From contig JAABTX010000003.1 in assembly GCA_011389655.1 (NCBI GenBank), positions 1 through 64,000 on the forward strand: a DNA stretch of 64,000 nucleotides, in the 5' to 3' direction. Positions 7,187 through 15,743 of this stretch are shown here, one piece after another (position 1 is the stretch's first letter; each line of letters starts with the position of its first letter). The translations under genes were made by a program, and so were the position numbers. Under the pieces are notes generated by a model. That model worked only from the letters and a program-made list of their open reading frames with translations. It did not search any database and was not told the origin of the DNA. The DNA comes from Thioalkalivibrio sp. (GTDB lineage: Bacteria; Pseudomonadota; Gammaproteobacteria; Ectothiorhodospirales; Ectothiorhodospiraceae).

Positions 7187-7213
7187 GGCATTCGTCCCAT
7201 AGGAGCGGCCCTT

Positions 7214-7648
7214 GTGGGAGCGGCCTCTGGCCGCGATGGCCCTAGGCACCCACGGCAACGCCGCATCGCGGCTGGAAGCCGCTCCTACAGGCCCGGCCCT
7301 GGTGGGAGCGGCCTCTGGCCGCGACGGCCCCAGGCACCCAGAGTAACGCCGCATCGCGGCTGGAAGCCGCTCCTACAGGCCCGGCCCTGGTGGGAGCGGC
7401 CTCTGGCCGCGATGGCCCCAGGCACCCACGGCAATGCCGCATCGCGGCTGGAAGCCGCTCCTACACGCCCGGCCCTGGTGGGAGCGGCCTCTGGCCGCGA
7501 TGGCCCCAGGCACCCAGAGCAATGCCGCATCGCGGCTGGAAGCCGCTCCTACAGGCCCGGCCCTGGTGGGGCGGCCTCTGGCCGCGATGGCCCCAGGCAC
7601 CCACGGCAACGCCGCATCGCGGCTGGAAGCCGCTCCTACACGCCCCCG
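7214..7648. repeat. Tandem array of five 88-bp BIME-like units
   Basis: Units start at 7214, 7302, 7390, 7478 and 7566. Each pairs gtgggagcggcctctggccgcgatg with catcgcggctggaagccgctcctac, two inverted copies of one REP-like sequence. Units 1, 3 and 5 carry cccacggcaa, while units 2 and 4 carry cccagagtaa or cccagagcaa. This alternation implies growth by a two-unit (176-bp) step. Unit 5 has lost one A (gtggggcgg). The ORFs crossing the array are artefacts of its 88-bp period. Confidence 0.9.
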
Positions 7649-7677: not shown

Positions 7678-7706
7678 CTGTAACCGATTCATCACCCCGA
7701 CGTCAC
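7678..7706 (+). promoter_or_regulatory. Candidate Pho box upstream of the GT4-PAP2 pair
   Basis: Three 7-mers occur at 11-bp steps: CTGTAAC (7678), TCATCAC (7689) and ACGTCAC (7700). The last A/C bases and the 4-bp spacers fit the PhoB direct-repeat consensus. A looser fourth unit, TTGACAA, follows at 7711. The box ends 34 bp before the ATG. Confidence 0.65.
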
Positions 7707-7739
7707 ACGGTTGACAAGCGCAGAGCGCACAGTGCACGC

Positions 7740-8945
7740 ATGAACGGTTCCATGCTGCACCTGCGACAAACGGACGTCGCCGCTTCCGGGCAGACGGCAC
7801 GTCGCCGTCGGCGGGTTACGGTCGTCACCGAGACCTGGCCACCGGAGGTCAACGGGGTGGCGATGACCATCCACCAGCTGGTCGACTGGCTGAGCCGCCG
7901 GCACGAGGTCTCGCTGATCCGCGTGCGACAGCGCGGCGGTGATCGGGGCATCACGCTCCCCGGTGTAACCACGCGGGTGATGCCGGGCGTGCCCGTGCCG
8001 CGCTACCGCGAGCTGCGCATGGGGGTTCCCTCCACCCGCGCCCTGAAGCGGCTGTGGCAACGGGAACCTCCCGACATCGTGCACGTGATCACCGAAGGCC
8101 CGCTGGGCTGGTCGGCCATCCGTGCCGCGAACGCGGCCGGAATCCCGGTGATCAGCGACTTCCACACGAATTTTCACCAGTACACCACGCACTACGGCAT
8201 GGGGCTGTTGCGACCCATCGCGCTGCACTACCTGCGCAGCCTGCACAACCGGACCCGCCTGACACTGGTTCCCACCCGGATGCTCGCAGACGATCTCGAA
8301 CGGGCGGGCTTCCGCGGCCTGGATGTGCTGGCGCGCGGCATCGACACCGAGCGGTTCAGCCCCCGCCAGCGGCAGGAGACGCTGCGGGCACACTGGGGTG
8401 CGAACCCGGACGACCCGGTCCTCCTGATGGTCAGCCGCATCGCGCCGGAGAAGAACCTGCCGCTGGCGCTGAAGGCCTTCGAGCAGGCCCGCGCACGCGC
8501 AGCCGGAGCCCGCATGGTGGTCGTCGGGGACGGCCCCGCGAGGGCCTCATTCGCCAAGGCTCACCCCGATGTGCACTTCGTCGGGATGCAGACCGGCGAG
8601 ACCCTGGCCGAACACTATGCCTCCGCCGACATCTTCGTGTTTCCGAGCCTGAGCGAGACCTTCGGCAACGTGACCCTGGAGGCAATGGCCAGCGGACTGG
8701 CTGTCGTCGCCTTTGACTACGCGGCGGCACGGGAGCATATCGCCGACGGCCGGAACGGGCGCTCGGTTCCGTGTACGGATGCGGCAGCCTTCGCGGACGT
8801 GGTCGCCGAACTTGCGGTGGACCGCCTGCAGACGAAGCGCCTCGGCAACGCCGCGCGCGAGACCGCGCTCGCAATCGACTGGGAACGGATCTGCGAGCGT
8901 TACGAGTTCTTCCTGGAGCAATGCGTGGAGGCCCCCGATGGCTGA
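7740..8945 (+). CDS. GT4 family glycosyltransferase (candidate Pho-regulated lipid glycosyltransferase)
   Basis: This is a 401-aa GT-B protein of family GT4. The N-terminal half begins VTETWPPEVNGVA, as in SqdX/MgtA/PimB-like lipid glycosyltransferases. The C-terminal half holds the donor-site E-x7-E motif in SETFGNVTLEAMASG (about 305-320). A PAP2 phosphatase gene overlaps its end by 8 bp, so the two are cotranslated. With the Pho box and neighbours plcP and olsB, I infer that it adds a sugar to diacylglycerol under phosphate starvation, like Agt. The substrate is not shown by the sequence; alpha-mannosyltransferase is the usual automatic name. The ATG at 7752 is an alternative start. The longer track ORF reads through repeats. 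Confidence 0.82.
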   Translation: MNGSMLHLRQTDVAASGQTARRRRRVTVVTETWPPEVNGVAMTIHQLVDWLSRRHEVSLIRVRQRGGDRGITLPGVTTRVMPGVPVPRYRELRMGVPSTRALKRLWQREPPDIVHVITEGPLGWSAIRAANAAGIPVISDFHTNFHQYTTHYGMGLLRPIALHYLRSLHNRTRLTLVPTRMLADDLERAGFRGLDVLARGIDTERFSPRQRQETLRAHWGANPDDPVLLMVSRIAPEKNLPLALKAFEQARARAAGARMVVVGDGPARASFAKAHPDVHFVGMQTGETLAEHYASADIFVFPSLSETFGNVTLEAMASGLAVVAFDYAAAREHIADGRNGRSVPCTDAAAFADVVAELAVDRLQTKRLGNAARETALAIDWERICERYEFFLEQCVEAPDG

Positions 8946-9501
8946 ACCAATGCTTACCTCCTCCTCACCCGGGTTCGCGCGAATCCAGGCGCTGGACCTC
9001 TTCCTTTGCAGCCTGCTGAACCGGGCCAACCGACGCGAGCACGTCGGGCGCCTCTTCGCCCTGTTCAGCCGGCTGGGCGACGGCATCTTCTGGTACACGC
9101 TGATCGCGCTGCTGCCGTTCCTTCACGGTGCCGGGGCAATAACCATCAGCCTGCACATGGCGCTGACCGGCCTGGCAGCCCTGCTGATCTACAAGTGGCT
9201 GAAGGCGCGCACCAGCCGTCCGCGGCCGTTCATGGTCAGCGATGCAATCATCCGCCGCGTGCCGCCCCTGGACGAATACAGCTTTCCCTCGGGCCACACG
9301 CTGCATGCGGTGGCCTTCTCGCTGGTGCTGCTGAGCCACCTGCCCGAGTGGTTCTGGGTGGTGGTCCCCTTCAGCGTGCTGGTCGCGGCCTCGCGGCCGG
9401 TGCTCGGGCTTCACTACCCGAGCGACGTGCTGGCCGGCGCAATGATCGGTGCGCTGGTGGCGGGCAGCTCGATCGCGGCTGCCTCCCTGTTGCTGGCCTG
9501 A
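8938..9501 (+). CDS. PAP2 family phosphatase
   Basis: The 187-aa membrane protein has about five helices and the complete PAP2 signature. KARTSRPRP lies at about 89-97, PSGH at 117-120 and SRPVLGLHYPSD at 152-163, with the catalytic histidines in the last two. The family dephosphorylates phosphatidate, undecaprenyl diphosphate or similar lipids at the membrane. Its ATG lies inside the end of the GT4 gene. In this context it would supply diacylglycerol to the glycosyltransferase and release phosphate. A role in recycling undecaprenyl diphosphate is an alternative. Confidence 0.88.
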   Translation: MAEPMLTSSSPGFARIQALDLFLCSLLNRANRREHVGRLFALFSRLGDGIFWYTLIALLPFLHGAGAITISLHMALTGLAALLIYKWLKARTSRPRPFMVSDAIIRRVPPLDEYSFPSGHTLHAVAFSLVLLSHLPEWFWVVVPFSVLVAASRPVLGLHYPSDVLAGAMIGALVAGSSIAAASLLLA

Positions 9502-9548: not shown

Positions 9549-11456
9549 TCAGACCAGCGGCGGATCCTGCGCCACCGCGAGATTCAGTGCCCGCAGCTGC
9601 GGCATCTTCTTCTGCTGATGATCCTGCATGCGATGCAGAATGCGATCCAGCGTACGCAATGCGGAGACGATGAACGGACCCTTGTTCAGCATCACGCACT
9701 CGGCCCGCACCGACATGGCGGCATCGCTCAACTCCGGACGCGAGACGGCCCCGGTCTTGGCCATCGTCTCCAGCACCTGCGTGGCCCAGATCACCGGCAC
9801 GTGACCACCCTCGGCCAGCCAGAGGATCTCCTCCTGGATCTCCGCGAGCCGCTCGCCGCCCACCTCGACCGCGAGATCGCCGCGCGCGATCATGATCGCC
9901 AGCGGGTAGCGCCCGATGGTGCTCAGCATGATCTCGGGAAGATTGCGCAGTGCGCGACCGGTCTCGATCTTGGCCACGATCGCCAGCGCCCCGGCACCGC
10001 GACGCTTGAGCTCTTCCATCAGCACGCGCATGTCCCCTGCACTCTCGACGAAGGAGAACCCGACCAGGTCGGCATGGCGCACGACGAAGTCGAGATCGGC
10101 CAGATCCTTTCCGCTCAACGGACCGAGACCGAGCTCGGCACCCGGAAGGTTGATCCCCTTGTCGGCGCGCAGCCGGAAACCGTCGGGCGCTGCGTGTGTC
10201 ACCCGCAGAGAGACGAAGTCCGGCCCCGTTTCCTCCACCATCGCGCCGAGACGCCCGTCATCGATCCACACGGCCTGCCCGACACACAGATGCGGCAGAA
10301 CCCGGGATGCGGTAATGCCGACGCGCGCCGGCTCACGTTCGTTTCCCTCCGCGTCCAGGAGTGGCGGACGTCCGGGAAGCTCGGGTCCCGTAAGCTGCAG
10401 GAGATCCCCGAGATGCAGGCGGATCTTTACCGGGAGCCGACGATGCCCGCTCAAGCGCACGGGATCGACCGTCACCCGGGCCCAGCGATCATCCTGCCAC
10501 CGCATCAGCCGCATCGCGGTATCCGGGCCGATCACGCTGGTCTTGCTGGCGCGCACGAGCCAGCCCAGCCCCCCGAGTTTCCGTTCCACCACCAGGCGGC
10601 GGTTCCGACCGCGCAGATCGGTGAACTGCAGACGGTCGCCCGCTTCCATCGCGACGAGGACCCAGTCCTCGGCGACCAGGCAGACGTCCGCAATCCCATC
10701 GGGCAGTGCGTGTTGCCCGGCAGCCGACACCAGGGCCACCCTCACCGGTTCGCGCACACCCGAAGCCGCGGCCCGTCGCGGCCGCAGGCGGGTCGAGGCC
10801 GGCGCATCCTCCAGTGGCCCGGTACGGATCTTGTGGCCGGCGAGATCCATCAGTATCCGGCAGCCCCGGCCCAGGCTCGCCTCCGCGTTGCGGATGTTCT
10901 CGATCATGCGCCGCCAGACCGGCAGATCGTCGTGGGCGCAATTGATGCGAGCACAGTCCATGCCGGACTCGAGCAGGGCCCTCACAAGACCCTCATTCGT
11001 GGCTGCCTCGGCCGGCATCGTGACCATGATCCGCGCCGTGCGCCGCGGCTGAGGCGGCCCGAAGACCGTCCTGGCATTGATTGCCAACAATTCGTTACCG
11101 GCATCGAAGCCGGGGACCGCCGCAGGCTCCAGCATCGGGTCGGGTTCACCGCACAGTGCGGTGAGGACGCCGATCACCTGATCGATGCTCGCGAGCACGT
11201 GGGCCTCGACCCGGCCGAGCGACGACAGGCCCTGCCGCGCCAACCGGAGCTGCAGCGGCCGCAGGTCCCGGCAGCGCAGCGCGAGGTAGTCGGCCAGGTT
11301 GCGGGCGCTGACTGCATAGTCTCCGTCGACGTCCGTCCGTGCGAACCAGCGCAGGCGCTGGGCCGCGCCTGCCAGGACTTCCTCGCGCAACGCAAGCATC
11401 TCCGAAAGCAGGGCCCGGTATTCCACGGCCGGGCCGGCCGGGTCAGATTCGATCAT
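9549..11456 (-). CDS. Pyruvate-kinase-like protein with N-terminal extension and altered active site
   Basis: This protein of about 635 aa has a roughly 135-aa helical N-terminus of unknown kind, then a pyruvate kinase barrel and no C-terminal regulatory domain. Barrel motifs are recognisable but changed. RINCAHDD replaces RLNFSHG, MDLAGHKIRTG replaces DTKGPEIRTG, and FSFVESA replaces ASFIRKA, so the catalytic Lys (K270 in rabbit) is missing. AKIE, IARGD (metal ligands) and ATQ remain. A large B-domain-like insert of about 200 aa sits in the middle. The Pho box just upstream puts it under PhoB. The track start is a TTG at 11519 upstream of the Pho box and is unlikely. ATGs at 11456 or 11399 are more plausible. 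The function is unknown; PEP or another phosphoacid may be bound. Confidence 0.75.
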   Translation of the reverse strand: MIESDPAGPAVEYRALLSEMLALREEVLAGAAQRLRWFARTDVDGDYAVSARNLADYLALRCRDLRPLQLRLARQGLSSLGRVEAHVLASIDQVIGVLTALCGEPDPMLEPAAVPGFDAGNELLAINARTVFGPPQPRRTARIMVTMPAEAATNEGLVRALLESGMDCARINCAHDDLPVWRRMIENIRNAEASLGRGCRILMDLAGHKIRTGPLEDAPASTRLRPRRAAASGVREPVRVALVSAAGQHALPDGIADVCLVAEDWVLVAMEAGDRLQFTDLRGRNRRLVVERKLGGLGWLVRASKTSVIGPDTAMRLMRWQDDRWARVTVDPVRLSGHRRLPVKIRLHLGDLLQLTGPELPGRPPLLDAEGNEREPARVGITASRVLPHLCVGQAVWIDDGRLGAMVEETGPDFVSLRVTHAAPDGFRLRADKGINLPGAELGLGPLSGKDLADLDFVVRHADLVGFSFVESAGDMRVLMEELKRRGAGALAIVAKIETGRALRNLPEIMLSTIGRYPLAIMIARGDLAVEVGGERLAEIQEEILWLAEGGHVPVIWATQVLETMAKTGAVSRPELSDAAMSVRAECVMLNKGPFIVSALRTLDRILHRMQDHQQKKMPQLRALNLAVAQDPPLV

Positions 11457-11480
11457 GGGCGCGGTGTTTAGCATGACTGA

Positions 11481-11509
11481 ATGACAAGGCGATGACTGTT
11501 TGGTGACAA
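11481..11509 (-). promoter_or_regulatory. Candidate Pho box upstream of the pyruvate-kinase-like gene
   Basis: On the minus strand the sequence reads TTGTCAC-CAAA-CAGTCAT-CGCC-TTGTCAT, three units at exact 11-bp steps close to CTGTCAT. It lies about 25 bp before the ATG at 11456. Its position excludes the upstream TTG start and hints at a very short or absent 5' leader. Confidence 0.8.
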
Positions 11510-11680
11510 AGGCCTGCAACGCGGAAACGATACTCTCCCGCCCCGCGAGGAAGGGAGCCGACGAAGGGCCAGGAGGCGCCCACCTAGCGTGAAGGTCGCG
11601 CGCCGCGCCCCGGACGCGCTATTGCTTTCGAGACCGGCCCCTGGCTGGACAGTCTACGGTCTGTCGCCCCGGGTTAGCGC

Positions 11681-11872: not shown

Positions 11873-11912
11873 GATTCACAGCGCTGTCAACTAAATTTCA
11901 AGGGCCTGTCAC
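11873..11912 (+). promoter_or_regulatory. Candidate four-unit Pho box upstream of olsB
   Basis: Units at 11-bp steps are GATTCAC (11873), CTGTCAA (11884), ATTTCAA (11895) and CTGTCAC (11906). The second and fourth match the PhoB consensus closely. The box ends 45 bp before the chosen ATG. Confidence 0.75.
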
Positions 11913-11956
11913 CATGCGCCCCCAAGCTATGGGGTCTGTAACCCAAGAGGATGTTC

Positions 11957-12730
11957 ATGCCGCAACTCGCTGAATACGGGCCCTGGGCACCGGCTCCCCG
12001 TCAGGCCCTGGTCACCGAGCTGGCCTCCAGCCCGGCCGATGTACTCGCCTGTCAGCAGCTGCGCTACCGGGTCTTCGCCCAGGAGATGGGCGCGCGTCTG
12101 CCGACCGCCGATCGCGGTATCGATGCCGATGGCTATGACGCATTCTGCCGCCATCTGCTTGTCCGCGAGGTCGATACCGGTGAGGTCGTGGCCAGTACCC
12201 GCATCCTGGTTTCGGACGACGCACCCGCCGCGGGCGGTTTTTACTCCCAAGGCGAATTCGACCTCGGAGCGCTGGTGGATCTTCCCGGCCGGGTCATGGA
12301 GGTCGGACGGACCTGCGTGCGCGCGGACTACCGCACGGGCTGGGCCATCAACGCGCTCTGGACCGGCCTGGCAAGGGTGATGACCCGGGGAGGTTTCGAC
12401 TTCATGATCGGTTGCGCGAGCATTCCCTTTGCACCGCATGACAAGGCAGCACATGCGCTGCTGAAGCAGCTCTACGCGAAGCATCCCTCGCCGCCGCAGT
12501 ACCGCGTCCATCCCCGCCAGCCGATGCCCGCCACGCCCGGCGCGTCCGCCTCACCGGCGCCCCTGCCACCCCTGCTGAAGGCATACCTGCGGCTGGGCGC
12601 GAGCATCTGCGGCGAGGCCTGCTGGGATCCGGACTTCGGGGTCGCCGACGTCTTCATCCTCCTGGATGTCAGGGAGGTGCCGGATCGGTATCGACGTCAT
12701 TTCCTGCGGGAACCGATGCTGGTGCCGTGA
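11957..12730 (+). CDS. olsB: L-ornithine N-alpha-acyltransferase OlsB (ornithine lipid synthesis)
   Basis: OlsB moves a 3-hydroxyacyl group from ACP to ornithine, the first step to phosphorus-free ornithine lipids. The 257-aa protein has the GNAT-like hemolysin/OlsB domain with LRYRVFAQEMG near residue 35, VGRTCVRADYR at about 115-125 and DFMIGCASIPF at about 150. The final part holds a family-typical DPDFGVADVFILLD segment. AGAGG at 11946-11950 abuts the ATG at 11951, so I choose the ATG at 11957 with 6-nt spacing. No olsA-type second acyltransferase is adjacent; it would have to be elsewhere. The upstream Pho box fits the known induction of ornithine lipids by phosphate limitation. Confidence 0.85.
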   Translation: MPQLAEYGPWAPAPRQALVTELASSPADVLACQQLRYRVFAQEMGARLPTADRGIDADGYDAFCRHLLVREVDTGEVVASTRILVSDDAPAAGGFYSQGEFDLGALVDLPGRVMEVGRTCVRADYRTGWAINALWTGLARVMTRGGFDFMIGCASIPFAPHDKAAHALLKQLYAKHPSPPQYRVHPRQPMPATPGASASPAPLPPLLKAYLRLGASICGEACWDPDFGVADVFILLDVREVPDRYRRHFLREPMLVP

Positions 12731-12872: not shown

Positions 12873-13175
12873 CGAGACCGTTTCGTCTTCGCCTCGCGGA
12901 CGGACACGCAGCGCCTGGTGCTCCTGGAATCCATGGCGCTGGGCGTCCCCGTGGTAGCGCTGGCCGAGATGGGCACCAAGGACATCCTGGCGCCGGGGCG
13001 TGGCGCACTGGTCGCCCGTGAGGATCCGGAGGACTTCGCCGCAAAGGACCTGCAGTTGGTGCACAATCCGGGGCTGCGCGACGCACTGGCGATGGAGGCG
13101 AGGGAGTATGCAAGGAACTGGGACGGGCCGGTTCTCGCGCAGCGCATGCTCGATCTGTACCGTAGCCTGCGGTAG
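12873..13175 (+). pseudogene. Remnant of a GT4 glycosyltransferase (C-terminal end only)
   Basis: The open frame beginning near 12873 reads DRFVFASRTDTQRLVLLESMALG and continues to LYRSLR. It is the final 100 or so residues of a GT4 enzyme, including the second Glu of the E-x7-E region. The usual 280 upstream residues are absent, and the 140 bp between olsB and this point encode nothing recognisable. The track start is a GTG at 12918 inside the conserved block. Most likely it is a 5' deletion pseudogene of a lipid glycosyltransferase that once followed olsB. Expression as an 85-aa peptide cannot be excluded. Confidence 0.7.
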
Positions 13176-13280: not shown

Positions 13281-14294
13281 ATGTCGATCCGCGTGGGCAT
13301 CAACGGTTTCGGGCGAATCGGGCGTCTCGCACTGCGGGCCGCCTGGGGCCGCGCAGACCTCGAGTTCGGGTTGATCAACGAGAAGGGTGGTGACGGCACC
13401 GTTTCCGCGCATCTGCTGGAATTCGATTCAGTGCACGGACGCTGGCCGCGTGCGGTGTCCGGCGAGTCGGACCGAGTCGGCATCGATGGAGAATGGATCG
13501 CGCACGTCAGTCACGACGCGCCGGGTGCCGTACCCTGGCGCGAGCACGGCATCGACCTGGTGATCGAATCCAGCGGACGTTTCCGCACCCTGGAGACGCT
13601 GGCGCCCTACTTCGACGCGGGGGTCCGCAAGGTCGTGGTCGCCGCGCCGGTCAAGGACCCGGGCGCGCTGAACGTGGTGGTCGGCGTGAATCATCACCTC
13701 TACGAACCCGGCCGTCACCGGGTGATCACCGCCGCCTCCTGCACCACCAATTGCCTCGCCCCGATCGTGAGTGTGCTGCACGCGGGCATCGGGATCCGCC
13801 ACGGTTCGATCCTCACGGTCCACGACATGACCGCCACGCAGTCGCCCGTCGACCGGCCACACGCCGACCTGCGGCGCGCCCGAGCCGCCGGTGTCTCGCT
13901 GATTCCCACCACCACCGGCTCCGCACGGGCCATCGGCGACATCTTTCCGGAGCTGAACGGACGTCTGAACGGCCACGCGGTCCGGGTCCCGCTGATGAAT
14001 GCATCCTTGACCGATTTCACCTTCGAGGCGGCCCGCGAGACCACCACCGACGAGGTCAACGGGCGGCTGAAGGCCGCGGCGGCGGCCGGACCGCTGGCGG
14101 GTATCCTGGGTTACGAGGAGCGCCCGCTGGTCTCCGCCGATTACCGGACCGATCCGCGCTCGGCGATCGTCGACGCCCCATCGACGCTGGTGATCGACGG
14201 CACGCAGGTGAAGGTGCTCGCCTGGTACGACAACGAATGGGGCTATGCGAACCGCCTGGTGGAGCTGGTCGAGCAGGTGGCGGCCTCGATGTAG
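13281..14294 (+). CDS. Glyceraldehyde-3-phosphate dehydrogenase, ArsJ-associated type
   Basis: The 337-aa protein has the Rossmann motif [15 protein letters not shown] at the N-terminus, the catalytic Cys in SCTTNC (C154) and the C-terminal [11 protein letters not shown]. From memory, the overall sequence ([27 protein letters not shown]-like and [12 protein letters not shown] blocks) is nearest to GAPDHs that sit beside arsJ. Those make 1-arseno-3-phosphoglycerate for export by ArsJ. No arsJ is present in this window. AGAGGAGG lies 7 nt before the ATG. A housekeeping glycolytic or gluconeogenic role is the alternative. No convincing Pho box precedes it. Confidence 0.85.
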
Positions 14295-14342: not shown

Positions 14343-14702
14343 ATGGCATACAGCAATCACCGCGGACTCACCCGCATCATCAAGGCCTTCGGCTATTCCT
14401 GGAGTGGGCTGCGTTCGACCTTCCGGCACGAGGAGGCCTTCCGGCAGGAACTGCTGCTGTGCCTGGTGCTGATTCCCGCGGCCTTGTGGCTCACCGATGT
14501 CGGCGTCGAACGCGCGCTGCTGATCGGCAGCCTGTTCCTGATCCTGATCGTGGAACTGCTGAACTCCGGGATCGAGGCGGCCATCGACCGCTTCGGTGAG
14601 GAACTGCACAAGTTGTCCGCGCGCGCGAAGGACATGGGCTCCGCCGCGGTGCTGCTCTCGTTCATCAACGCCGGGGCAATCTGGCTGCTGGTGTTGCTGT
14701 AG
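14343..14702 (+). CDS. dgkA: Diacylglycerol kinase
   Basis: This is a 119-aa three-helix membrane enzyme that phosphorylates diacylglycerol to phosphatidate with ATP. The signature ELLNSGIEAAIDRF is present at about residues 69-82, and the glutamate-rich first helix (FRHEEAFRQE) is conserved. In this neighbourhood it would return diacylglycerol released by PlcP to phospholipid synthesis, opposing the PAP2 and glycosyltransferase route. It lies 48 bp after the GAPDH gene on the same strand. Confidence 0.93.
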   Translation: MAYSNHRGLTRIIKAFGYSWSGLRSTFRHEEAFRQELLLCLVLIPAALWLTDVGVERALLIGSLFLILIVELLNSGIEAAIDRFGEELHKLSARAKDMGSAAVLLSFINAGAIWLLVLL

Positions 14703-14897: not shown

Positions 14898-15743
14898 ATG
14901 CCTTCCTTCGACTGCCGAACCGCCTTCGTATCCGACGTCCACCTGGGTACCCGCGACTGCCGCGCCGCCTACCTGCTCGATTTCCTGAAGCGCCTCGACT
15001 GCGACCGGCTCGTACTGGTCGGGGATGTCTTCGACCTGTGGGCGATGCGCCGCCGCGTGGTGTGGACCCGGGAGCAGTCCGCGATCCTCGAGCATGTGTT
15101 CGCCCTTGCCGAGAACGGTACCGAGGTCATCTACATACCCGGCAACCACGACGAACACATGCGCCGCCTGATCGGCTCGGAGATCCGGGGCGTTCGCATC
15201 CTTCGGAATATGGAACACGAGACCGCGGACGGGCGGCGCTTTCTCGTGAGCCATGGCGATGAATTCGACGATGAAGTCCGTCACAGTCGATTCCAGCACC
15301 ACATCGGAGACCTCAGCTATCAGTTCCTGCTGCAGATCAGCTACTGGGTCGACCGGCTTCGAAGGCGGATGCAGCGGCCCTACTGGTCTCTGTCCACCTG
15401 GGCGAAGACCCGGGTGGGGCGGGTGCGCGACTACATCGGCCGCTTCGAGGCGGCCGCCACCCGCGCGGCCCGCGAGGGCGGCTACGACGGGTATATCGGC
15501 GGCCATATCCACAAGGCCGCGATCAGCCCGCGGCACGGCATCCTCTATTGCAACACCGGAGACTGGGTGGAGCACTGCACCGCCCTGATCGAGGACCATG
15601 GCGGCTATCTGCACCTGGTGCACTGGTCCGACCACGCGCGGCTGGATGCCAGCGATAGTGGTCGAACGGGCGCCGGACGTGACACGGGACGTCTGCCACC
15701 TGAGCTTGCCTGGTTGTACGCCGCGGCAACAACGACCCGCTGA
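14898..15743 (+). CDS. plcP: PlcP-type metallophosphoesterase (phospholipase C-like, LpxH-related)
   Basis: This 281-aa calcineurin-like phosphoesterase has all five metal motifs: SDVHLGT (12-18), GDVFDLW, GNHDEHM, SHGDEFD and GHIHKA. LpxH is about 240 aa. This protein has the longer middle region and C-terminal tail of the PlcP group, which cuts phospholipid headgroups to give diacylglycerol under phosphate starvation in rhizobia and marine bacteria. The nearby olsB, dgkA, GT4 and pst genes support that reading over lipid A synthesis. GGAG lies 7 nt before the ATG. Assignment as PlcP rather than an LpxH paralogue is from motif and context only. Confidence 0.75.
   Translation: MPSFDCRTAFVSDVHLGTRDCRAAYLLDFLKRLDCDRLVLVGDVFDLWAMRRRVVWTREQSAILEHVFALAENGTEVIYIPGNHDEHMRRLIGSEIRGVRILRNMEHETADGRRFLVSHGDEFDDEVRHSRFQHHIGDLSYQFLLQISYWVDRLRRRMQRPYWSLSTWAKTRVGRVRDYIGRFEAAATRAAREGGYDGYIGGHIHKAAISPRHGILYCNTGDWVEHCTALIEDHGGYLHLVHWSDHARLDASDSGRTGAGRDTGRLPPELAWLYAAATTTR

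Follow-up and report, generated by a model that had tools for sequence, protein, structure and literature searches.

Does the overlapping pair of genes described here, for a GT4 glycosyltransferase and a PAP2-family phosphatase, encode a phosphate-controlled route to glycolipid in which the phosphatase supplies diacylglycerol to the transferase? The pair lies on a contig of Thioalkalivibrio sp. (JAABTX010000003.1), within the 64,000-nucleotide stretch of DNA that was analysed (hereafter the window). An earlier note on this stretch had proposed such a route, with PAP2 acting first and GT4 second. The pair and its control elements comprise four features:

7678-7717, + strand: degenerate Pho box of four heptamers at 11-base spacing (CTGTAAC, TCATCAC, ACGTCAC, TTGACAA); 19/28, shuffle p = 0.002
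7740-8945, + strand: GT4 glycosyltransferase, Agt-like (clade A), predicted diacylglycerol glycosyltransferase (Pfam, tree, essential-residue check, AlphaFold2 pLDDT 90.8)
8927-8931, + strand: GGAGG ribosome-binding site of the PAP2 gene, within the GT4 gene (sequence read directly)
8938-9501, + strand: PAP2-family integral membrane lipid phosphatase, predicted phosphatidate phosphatase (Pfam, catalytic motifs invariant in 47 rows, fold match)

The GT4 gene runs from an ATG at 7740 to a stop codon at 8943-8945 and encodes 401 aa that match the Pfam families Glycos_transf_1 (118 bits) and Glyco_transf_4 (100 bits), both above cut-off. The PAP2 gene, from an ATG at 8938 to 9501, encodes 187 aa (Pfam PF01569, 78 bits against a cut-off of 27). 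As the earlier note had claimed, the phosphatase starts inside the GT4 gene, the two sharing the 8 bases ATGGCTGA (8938-8945). This overlap, together with the GGAGG located 6 bases 5' of the PAP2 start, suggests that translation of the two genes is likely coupled. The same 8-base overlap was identified in relatives L009-L014 (GT4 identity 71-91%), and in more distant relatives the two genes are mostly adjacent with short gaps. The closest named record for the window GT4 is from Thioalkalivibrio sp. SH-MAG144 (L170; 91% identity). Of the 71 genomes sampled with a clade A GT4, 65 have PAP2 next to it.

The Pho box ends 22 bases 5' of the GT4 start. The earlier note had also placed a Pho box before the pair, and this holds for the four-unit run but not for a classical two-unit site (10/14 positions, p = 0.16); the box is absent among two-unit Pho sites even when up to 3 mismatches are allowed. 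On the four-unit model, the GT4 box (19/28) scores below those of olsB (21/28) and pstS (24/28) in the same window. The same four-unit run was found upstream of GT4-PAP2 pairs in relatives. Among 63 clade A GT4 operons, 49 have a Pho box at p <= 0.05 and 39 at p <= 0.01, as compared to 5 and 1, respectively, among 150 control genes taken from these loci (Mann-Whitney p = 9e-23); the four-unit model was tried after the two-unit model had failed, and the control genes therefore matter to this comparison. As read from sequence, the evidence for a Pho box is moderate at the window GT4 site itself and strong across the orthologous GT4 operons as a set. The GT4 promoter is directly preceded, at 7206-7645, by a GC-rich tandem array of five 88-base units (94% matches) with REP-like palindromes.

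The phylogeny that the earlier note had named as a check on the GT4 protein places it beside plcP-linked Agt and apart from PimA/PimB'. The tree comprised 77 sequences rooted with PimA/PimB', with Agt represented by plcP-linked sequences. Three lineages were recovered, each as one clade. Clade A (support 97) is the window type (VTETxPPEVNGVA) and usually occurs with PAP2. Clade B (support 100) comprises proteins of ~345 aa (VTDAWxPQVNGVV) usually encoded directly beside plcP, and is called Agt on the basis of this adjacency, as tested Agts are described (PMC4796936, PMC8528852). Clade C (support 98) comprises proteins of ~400 aa (SDVYFPRxNGVST) often encoded beside PAP2 and/or plcP, with alpha-monoglucosyldiacylglycerol synthase as the best NCBIfam match (147 bits against a cut-off of 400). 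Clade A adjoins clade B with moderate support (83), and the window GT4 does not fall inside clade B. SqdX, represented by one sequence from a Tolypothrix genome that was defined by its neighbour SqdB, branches outside of A and B and shares 33% identity with the window GT4.

The window GT4 also retains nearly all residues on which a tested Agt depends. Mutagenesis of the HTCC7211 Agt identified residues whose change abolished activity (PMC8231724), and an alignment shows that the window GT4 keeps G39, G120, G123, H142, R199, R233, K238, T307, F308, G309, E314, and W383, which include TEGPLG, the His, the Lys, the diacylglycerol-contacting Arg, and the Trp. The one exception is the catalytic Asp256 of HTCC7211 Agt, which is Glu306 in the window GT4. 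The change D256E lowered the activity of HTCC7211 Agt by > 90% (PMC8231724), and Glu also occupies this position in MshA and the other GT4 enzymes that were aligned. The TEGPLG motif is common to clades A and B and absent in clade C, SqdX, and the PIM enzymes, and the RGVD arginine is common to A, B, and SqdX.

A cell-wall or capsule mannosyltransferase paired with a phosphatase that recycles undecaprenyl phosphate would also account for a GT4-PAP2 pair, since both families are common in polysaccharide pathways and PimA is the nearest solved sequence to the window GT4 (phmmer). The tree disfavours this reading of GT4: PimA and PimB' fall outside the group of clade A and Agt, and lack both TEGPLG and the RGVD arginine. 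Moreover, the neighbours recognised at GT4-PAP2 loci are lipid and Pho genes, and UppP is encoded elsewhere in the genome. We consider this reading highly improbable.

In addition to phoU, pst genes, and phoR, the window carries olsB, dgkA, and plcP downstream of the pair:

11884-11912, + strand: olsB Pho box, three units (CTGTCAACTAAATTTCAAGGGCCTGTCAC); three-unit score 17/21, p = 0.002
11951-12730, + strand: olsB, L-ornithine N-acyltransferase (ornithine lipid synthesis); best NCBIfam matches are OlsB families, below cut-offs
12918-13175, + strand: remnant of another GT4 gene, of clade C, keeping 85 codons of its C-terminal end; 53% identity to the C-terminus of the L044 gene, last third of Glycos_transf_1 only
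14343-14702, + strand: dgkA, diacylglycerol kinase (Pfam DAGK_prokar, 113 bits)
14898-15743, + strand: plcP, phospholipase C-type metallophosphoesterase resembling LpxH, of the plcP family that adjoins agt in relatives

The claim that this arrangement differs from plcP-agt in its operon partner proved correct, the partner being PAP2 and not plcP, and the distance of ~6 kb that had been given for plcP was close, as the gene starts at 14898, 5.4 kb downstream of the pair. The clade C remnant sits between olsB and a GAPDH gene. Its counterpart is intact in L044, where it lies between olsB and plcP, and is partial in L010, L013, and L045 as in the window, which suggests that the clade C gene is decaying in this group. 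The GAPDH gene (13281-14294), inside the lipid and Pho cluster, matches an NCBI ArsJ-associated family (517 bits against a cut-off of 450), and a link to arsenate is possible from this match. Between the pair and olsB is a gene for pyruvate kinase (9549-11519, - strand; PRK14725 type, above cut-off) with a three-unit Pho box at 11481-11509 (18/21) that is among the best in the window; a phosphate-controlled pyruvate kinase, as this box would imply, would be unusual.

Among relatives, the order olsB-olsA-GT4-PAP2 is frequent (L050, L051, L055-L057, and others), with lyso-ornithine lipid O-acyltransferase as the best match of OlsA. Other orders are GT4-PlcP-PAP2 (L093, L100, L103) and GT4-PAP2-dgkA-plcP (L047), and L103 combines GT4, PlcP, PAP2, a clade C GT, olsB, and olsA in one locus. 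The gene directly 3' of GT4 is PAP2 or PlcP depending on the species, and both follow GT4 in L093, L100, L103, and L220. No sqdB was seen beside the GT4-PAP2 pair. The same PAP2 family also adjoins a separate clade C GT in L150, L158, L163, L165, and L166, a second PAP2-GT module. A proteobacterial-type GT4-PAP2 locus with phoR was observed in a cyanobacterial assembly (L241, a record titled Tolypothrix campylonemoides) and is probably contamination.

The frequent linkage to olsBA raises the alternative that the GT4 acceptor is phosphatidylglycerol or ornithine lipid and that PAP2 dephosphorylates the product or a precursor. Consistent with this, the NCBIfam model that the window GT4 matches best is that of N-acetylglucosaminyl phosphatidylglycerol synthase (142 bits). 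However, the context-defined SqdX, an enzyme with diacylglycerol as acceptor, scores higher on the same model (166.6 bits), indicating that the match is non-specific. Several pairs are located away from olsBA, and the window GT4 clusters with plcP-linked Agt. We therefore regard an acceptor other than diacylglycerol as improbable. The name GlcN-PG synthase was rejected for GT4, its score being far below the cut-off of 480.

The PAP2 motifs K-x6-RP, PSGH, and SR-x5-H-x3-D are invariant in 47 sequences, and the AlphaFold2 model of the window protein (pLDDT 95.7) has B. subtilis PgpB and A. aeolicus LpxE as its closest folds. The best NCBIfam match is the undecaprenyl-diphosphatase SepP, a name that was rejected because 67.7 bits is far below the cut-off of 250; the cut-off for YbjG was likewise unmet (26.5 bits against 229). 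This is the sole PAP2-domain gene found in the genome of the window. UppP and PgpA are encoded elsewhere in that genome, and those housekeeping steps thus do not depend on PAP2.

The distribution of charged residues bears on the side of the membrane at which PAP2 would act. Excluding catalytic residues, the face bearing the active site has a mean of 8.7 K+R and the opposite face 0.4, a pattern that is reversed in no row. E. coli PgpB, B. subtilis PgpB, and LpxE hold 2-4 K/R in each loop opposite the active site, and six other bacterial PAP2 proteins also hold K/R in these loops, in a control set without E. coli YbjG and LpxT, which the motif pattern used did not fit. Two distant PAP2 proteins (L268, L276) resemble the window PAP2 in charge pattern. 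By the positive-inside rule, K/R are expected in the opposite loops where those loops are cytoplasmic. This rule and the charge-poor opposite face predict that the active site of the window PAP2 faces the cytoplasm; because catalysis itself also calls for positive charge on the active-site face, the charge-poor opposite face is the stronger argument. PlcP and GT4 are expected to act on the cytoplasmic side. We tentatively suggest that GT4-linked PAP2 may be inverted relative to PgpB and LpxE and may hand diacylglycerol to GT4 in the same leaflet, which would constitute PlcP-independent, Pho-regulated remodelling across Gammaproteobacteria (Betaproteobacteria included, following GTDB); we hold it possible that this proposal is correct in full.

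The distribution of PlcP provides a further line of evidence. PlcP was undetected (E 1e-22 to 1e-25) in 22 genomes with the GT4-PAP2 pair, in which the PlcP profile at E 1e-5 recovered weak LpxH-like matches only. Most PlcP-less genomes are 97-100% complete, and others less so (G008 79%, G018 66%, G164 95%, G016 96%), such that assembly gaps could account for the absence of PlcP in some of the incomplete genomes. Conversely, PlcP was present in all 28 genomes that were checked with GT4 and no adjacent PAP2. These comprised six clade A genomes (of the 71 sampled), all with PlcP, and 22 further named genomes in which the GT4 flank contains neither PAP2 nor PlcP, where a full PlcP was encoded elsewhere in 21 and PlcP was split over two contig fragments in the remaining one. 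Overall, 22 genomes had PAP2 and no PlcP, 43 had both, 28 had PlcP only, and none of the sampled genomes with GT4 had neither. This association is significant when uncorrected for relatedness (p = 1.2e-4) and not significant after correction for kinship, where the test had 9 independent pairs and no power; PAP2 changed in 1-2 of these pairs, always in the expected direction.

These data also bear on the alternative that PlcP or the general pool supplies the diacylglycerol on which GT4, a glycosyltransferase under Pho control, acts, and that PAP2 has another job under low phosphate, such as phosphate salvage with undecaprenyl diphosphate, lipid A, or PGP as substrate. The closest solved folds, a PGP phosphatase (B. 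subtilis PgpB) and a lipid A phosphatase (LpxE), are compatible with such a job, as are the SepP match, despite its low score, and the presence of PlcP in the window genome. Nevertheless, the 22 genomes retain the pair without PlcP, and genes of the PAP2 family are found next to GTs of two different clades and exchange places with PlcP. The window genome also encodes UppP and PgpA at other sites, and a predicted cytoplasmic active site is ill-suited to periplasmic substrates. A separate job for PAP2 is thus unlikely, albeit less so than either alternative for GT4.

We favour a Pho-controlled glycolipid module in which PAP2 probably dephosphorylates phosphatidate to diacylglycerol, either in place of PlcP or alongside it; we infer the PAP2 substrate, the sugar, the product, and the topology. 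Under low phosphate, PhoB-P would switch on the GT4-PAP2 operon as a member of the phosphate regulon, and one message would give both proteins through coupled translation. PAP2 would convert phosphatidate, the branch point of phospholipid synthesis, to diacylglycerol and free phosphate, and GT4 would transfer a sugar, most likely glucose or glucuronate from a UDP-sugar donor, to diacylglycerol at the inner face of the inner membrane, yielding a phosphate-free glycolipid. Ornithine lipid would be synthesised in parallel. PlcP strips existing phospholipids to diacylglycerol, and PAP2 would divert new lipid before phospholipid forms, making the two alternative or parallel suppliers. In the window genome, where PlcP is also present, the PAP2 route is at most parallel to PlcP and does not replace it.

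The route put forward in the earlier note is in part supported, in that the linkage to olsB, olsA, plcP, and dgkA, the Pho boxes, and the PlcP-less pair genomes fit it. A counterpoint is that the diacylglycerol kinase encoded by dgkA in this cluster would reverse the PAP2 reaction; it may return diacylglycerol to phosphatidate, perhaps once phosphate returns. Furthermore, when Agt enzymes are expressed in E. coli, glycolipid forms even though PlcP is absent (PMC8528852, PMC4796936), such that a dedicated source of diacylglycerol is not strictly required and PAP2 may instead raise flux. Sebastian et al. (PMC4796936) describe diacylglycerol as derived from dephosphorylation of phosphatidate or from PlcP, and discuss two marine strains apparently without phosphatidate phosphatases; the GT4-PAP2 pair would be the other diacylglycerol branch of that scheme.

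The proposed module resembles the PlcP-Agt pathway known in Sinorhizobium, Agrobacterium, SAR11, and Pseudomonas aeruginosa (PA3219-PA3218), in that a Pho-controlled Agt-type GT4 is in an operon with an enzyme able to supply diacylglycerol and is linked to synthesis of non-phosphorus lipids. What differs from known Pho-regulated glycolipid synthesis is the supplier, here a PAP2 membrane phosphatase and not the PlcP metallophosphoesterase, and the GT4, here of a separate sister clade with ~400 residues versus ~345. Plastid phosphatidate phosphatase feeding glycolipid synthases (PMC4796936, citing Nakamura 2007) follows the same order from phosphatidate through diacylglycerol to glycolipid, but is not described there as a Pho-box operon, whereas the phosphatase and transferase genes overlap here. 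The window PAP2 shares its fold and three catalytic motifs with PgpB and LpxE, yet is nearly devoid of K/R opposite the active site and is predicted to have the reverse orientation. SqdX is likewise a GT4 with diacylglycerol as acceptor, as predicted for the window GT4, but differs from it in tree position and in lacking TEGPLG. Among open-licence papers, we found no published description of a GT4-PAP2 pair under phosphate control.

Bacterial genomes are scored for phosphate-saving membrane remodelling with PlcP as a marker gene. Should PAP2 be able to supply diacylglycerol, genomes scored as unable to remodel may well do so, which here would include several of the Thioalkalivibrio group and members of ~10 other families. 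Remodelling in these organisms would proceed through diversion of phosphatidate from new lipid and not through stripping of old lipid, and a candidate glycolipid gene set is thereby named for organisms without PlcP.
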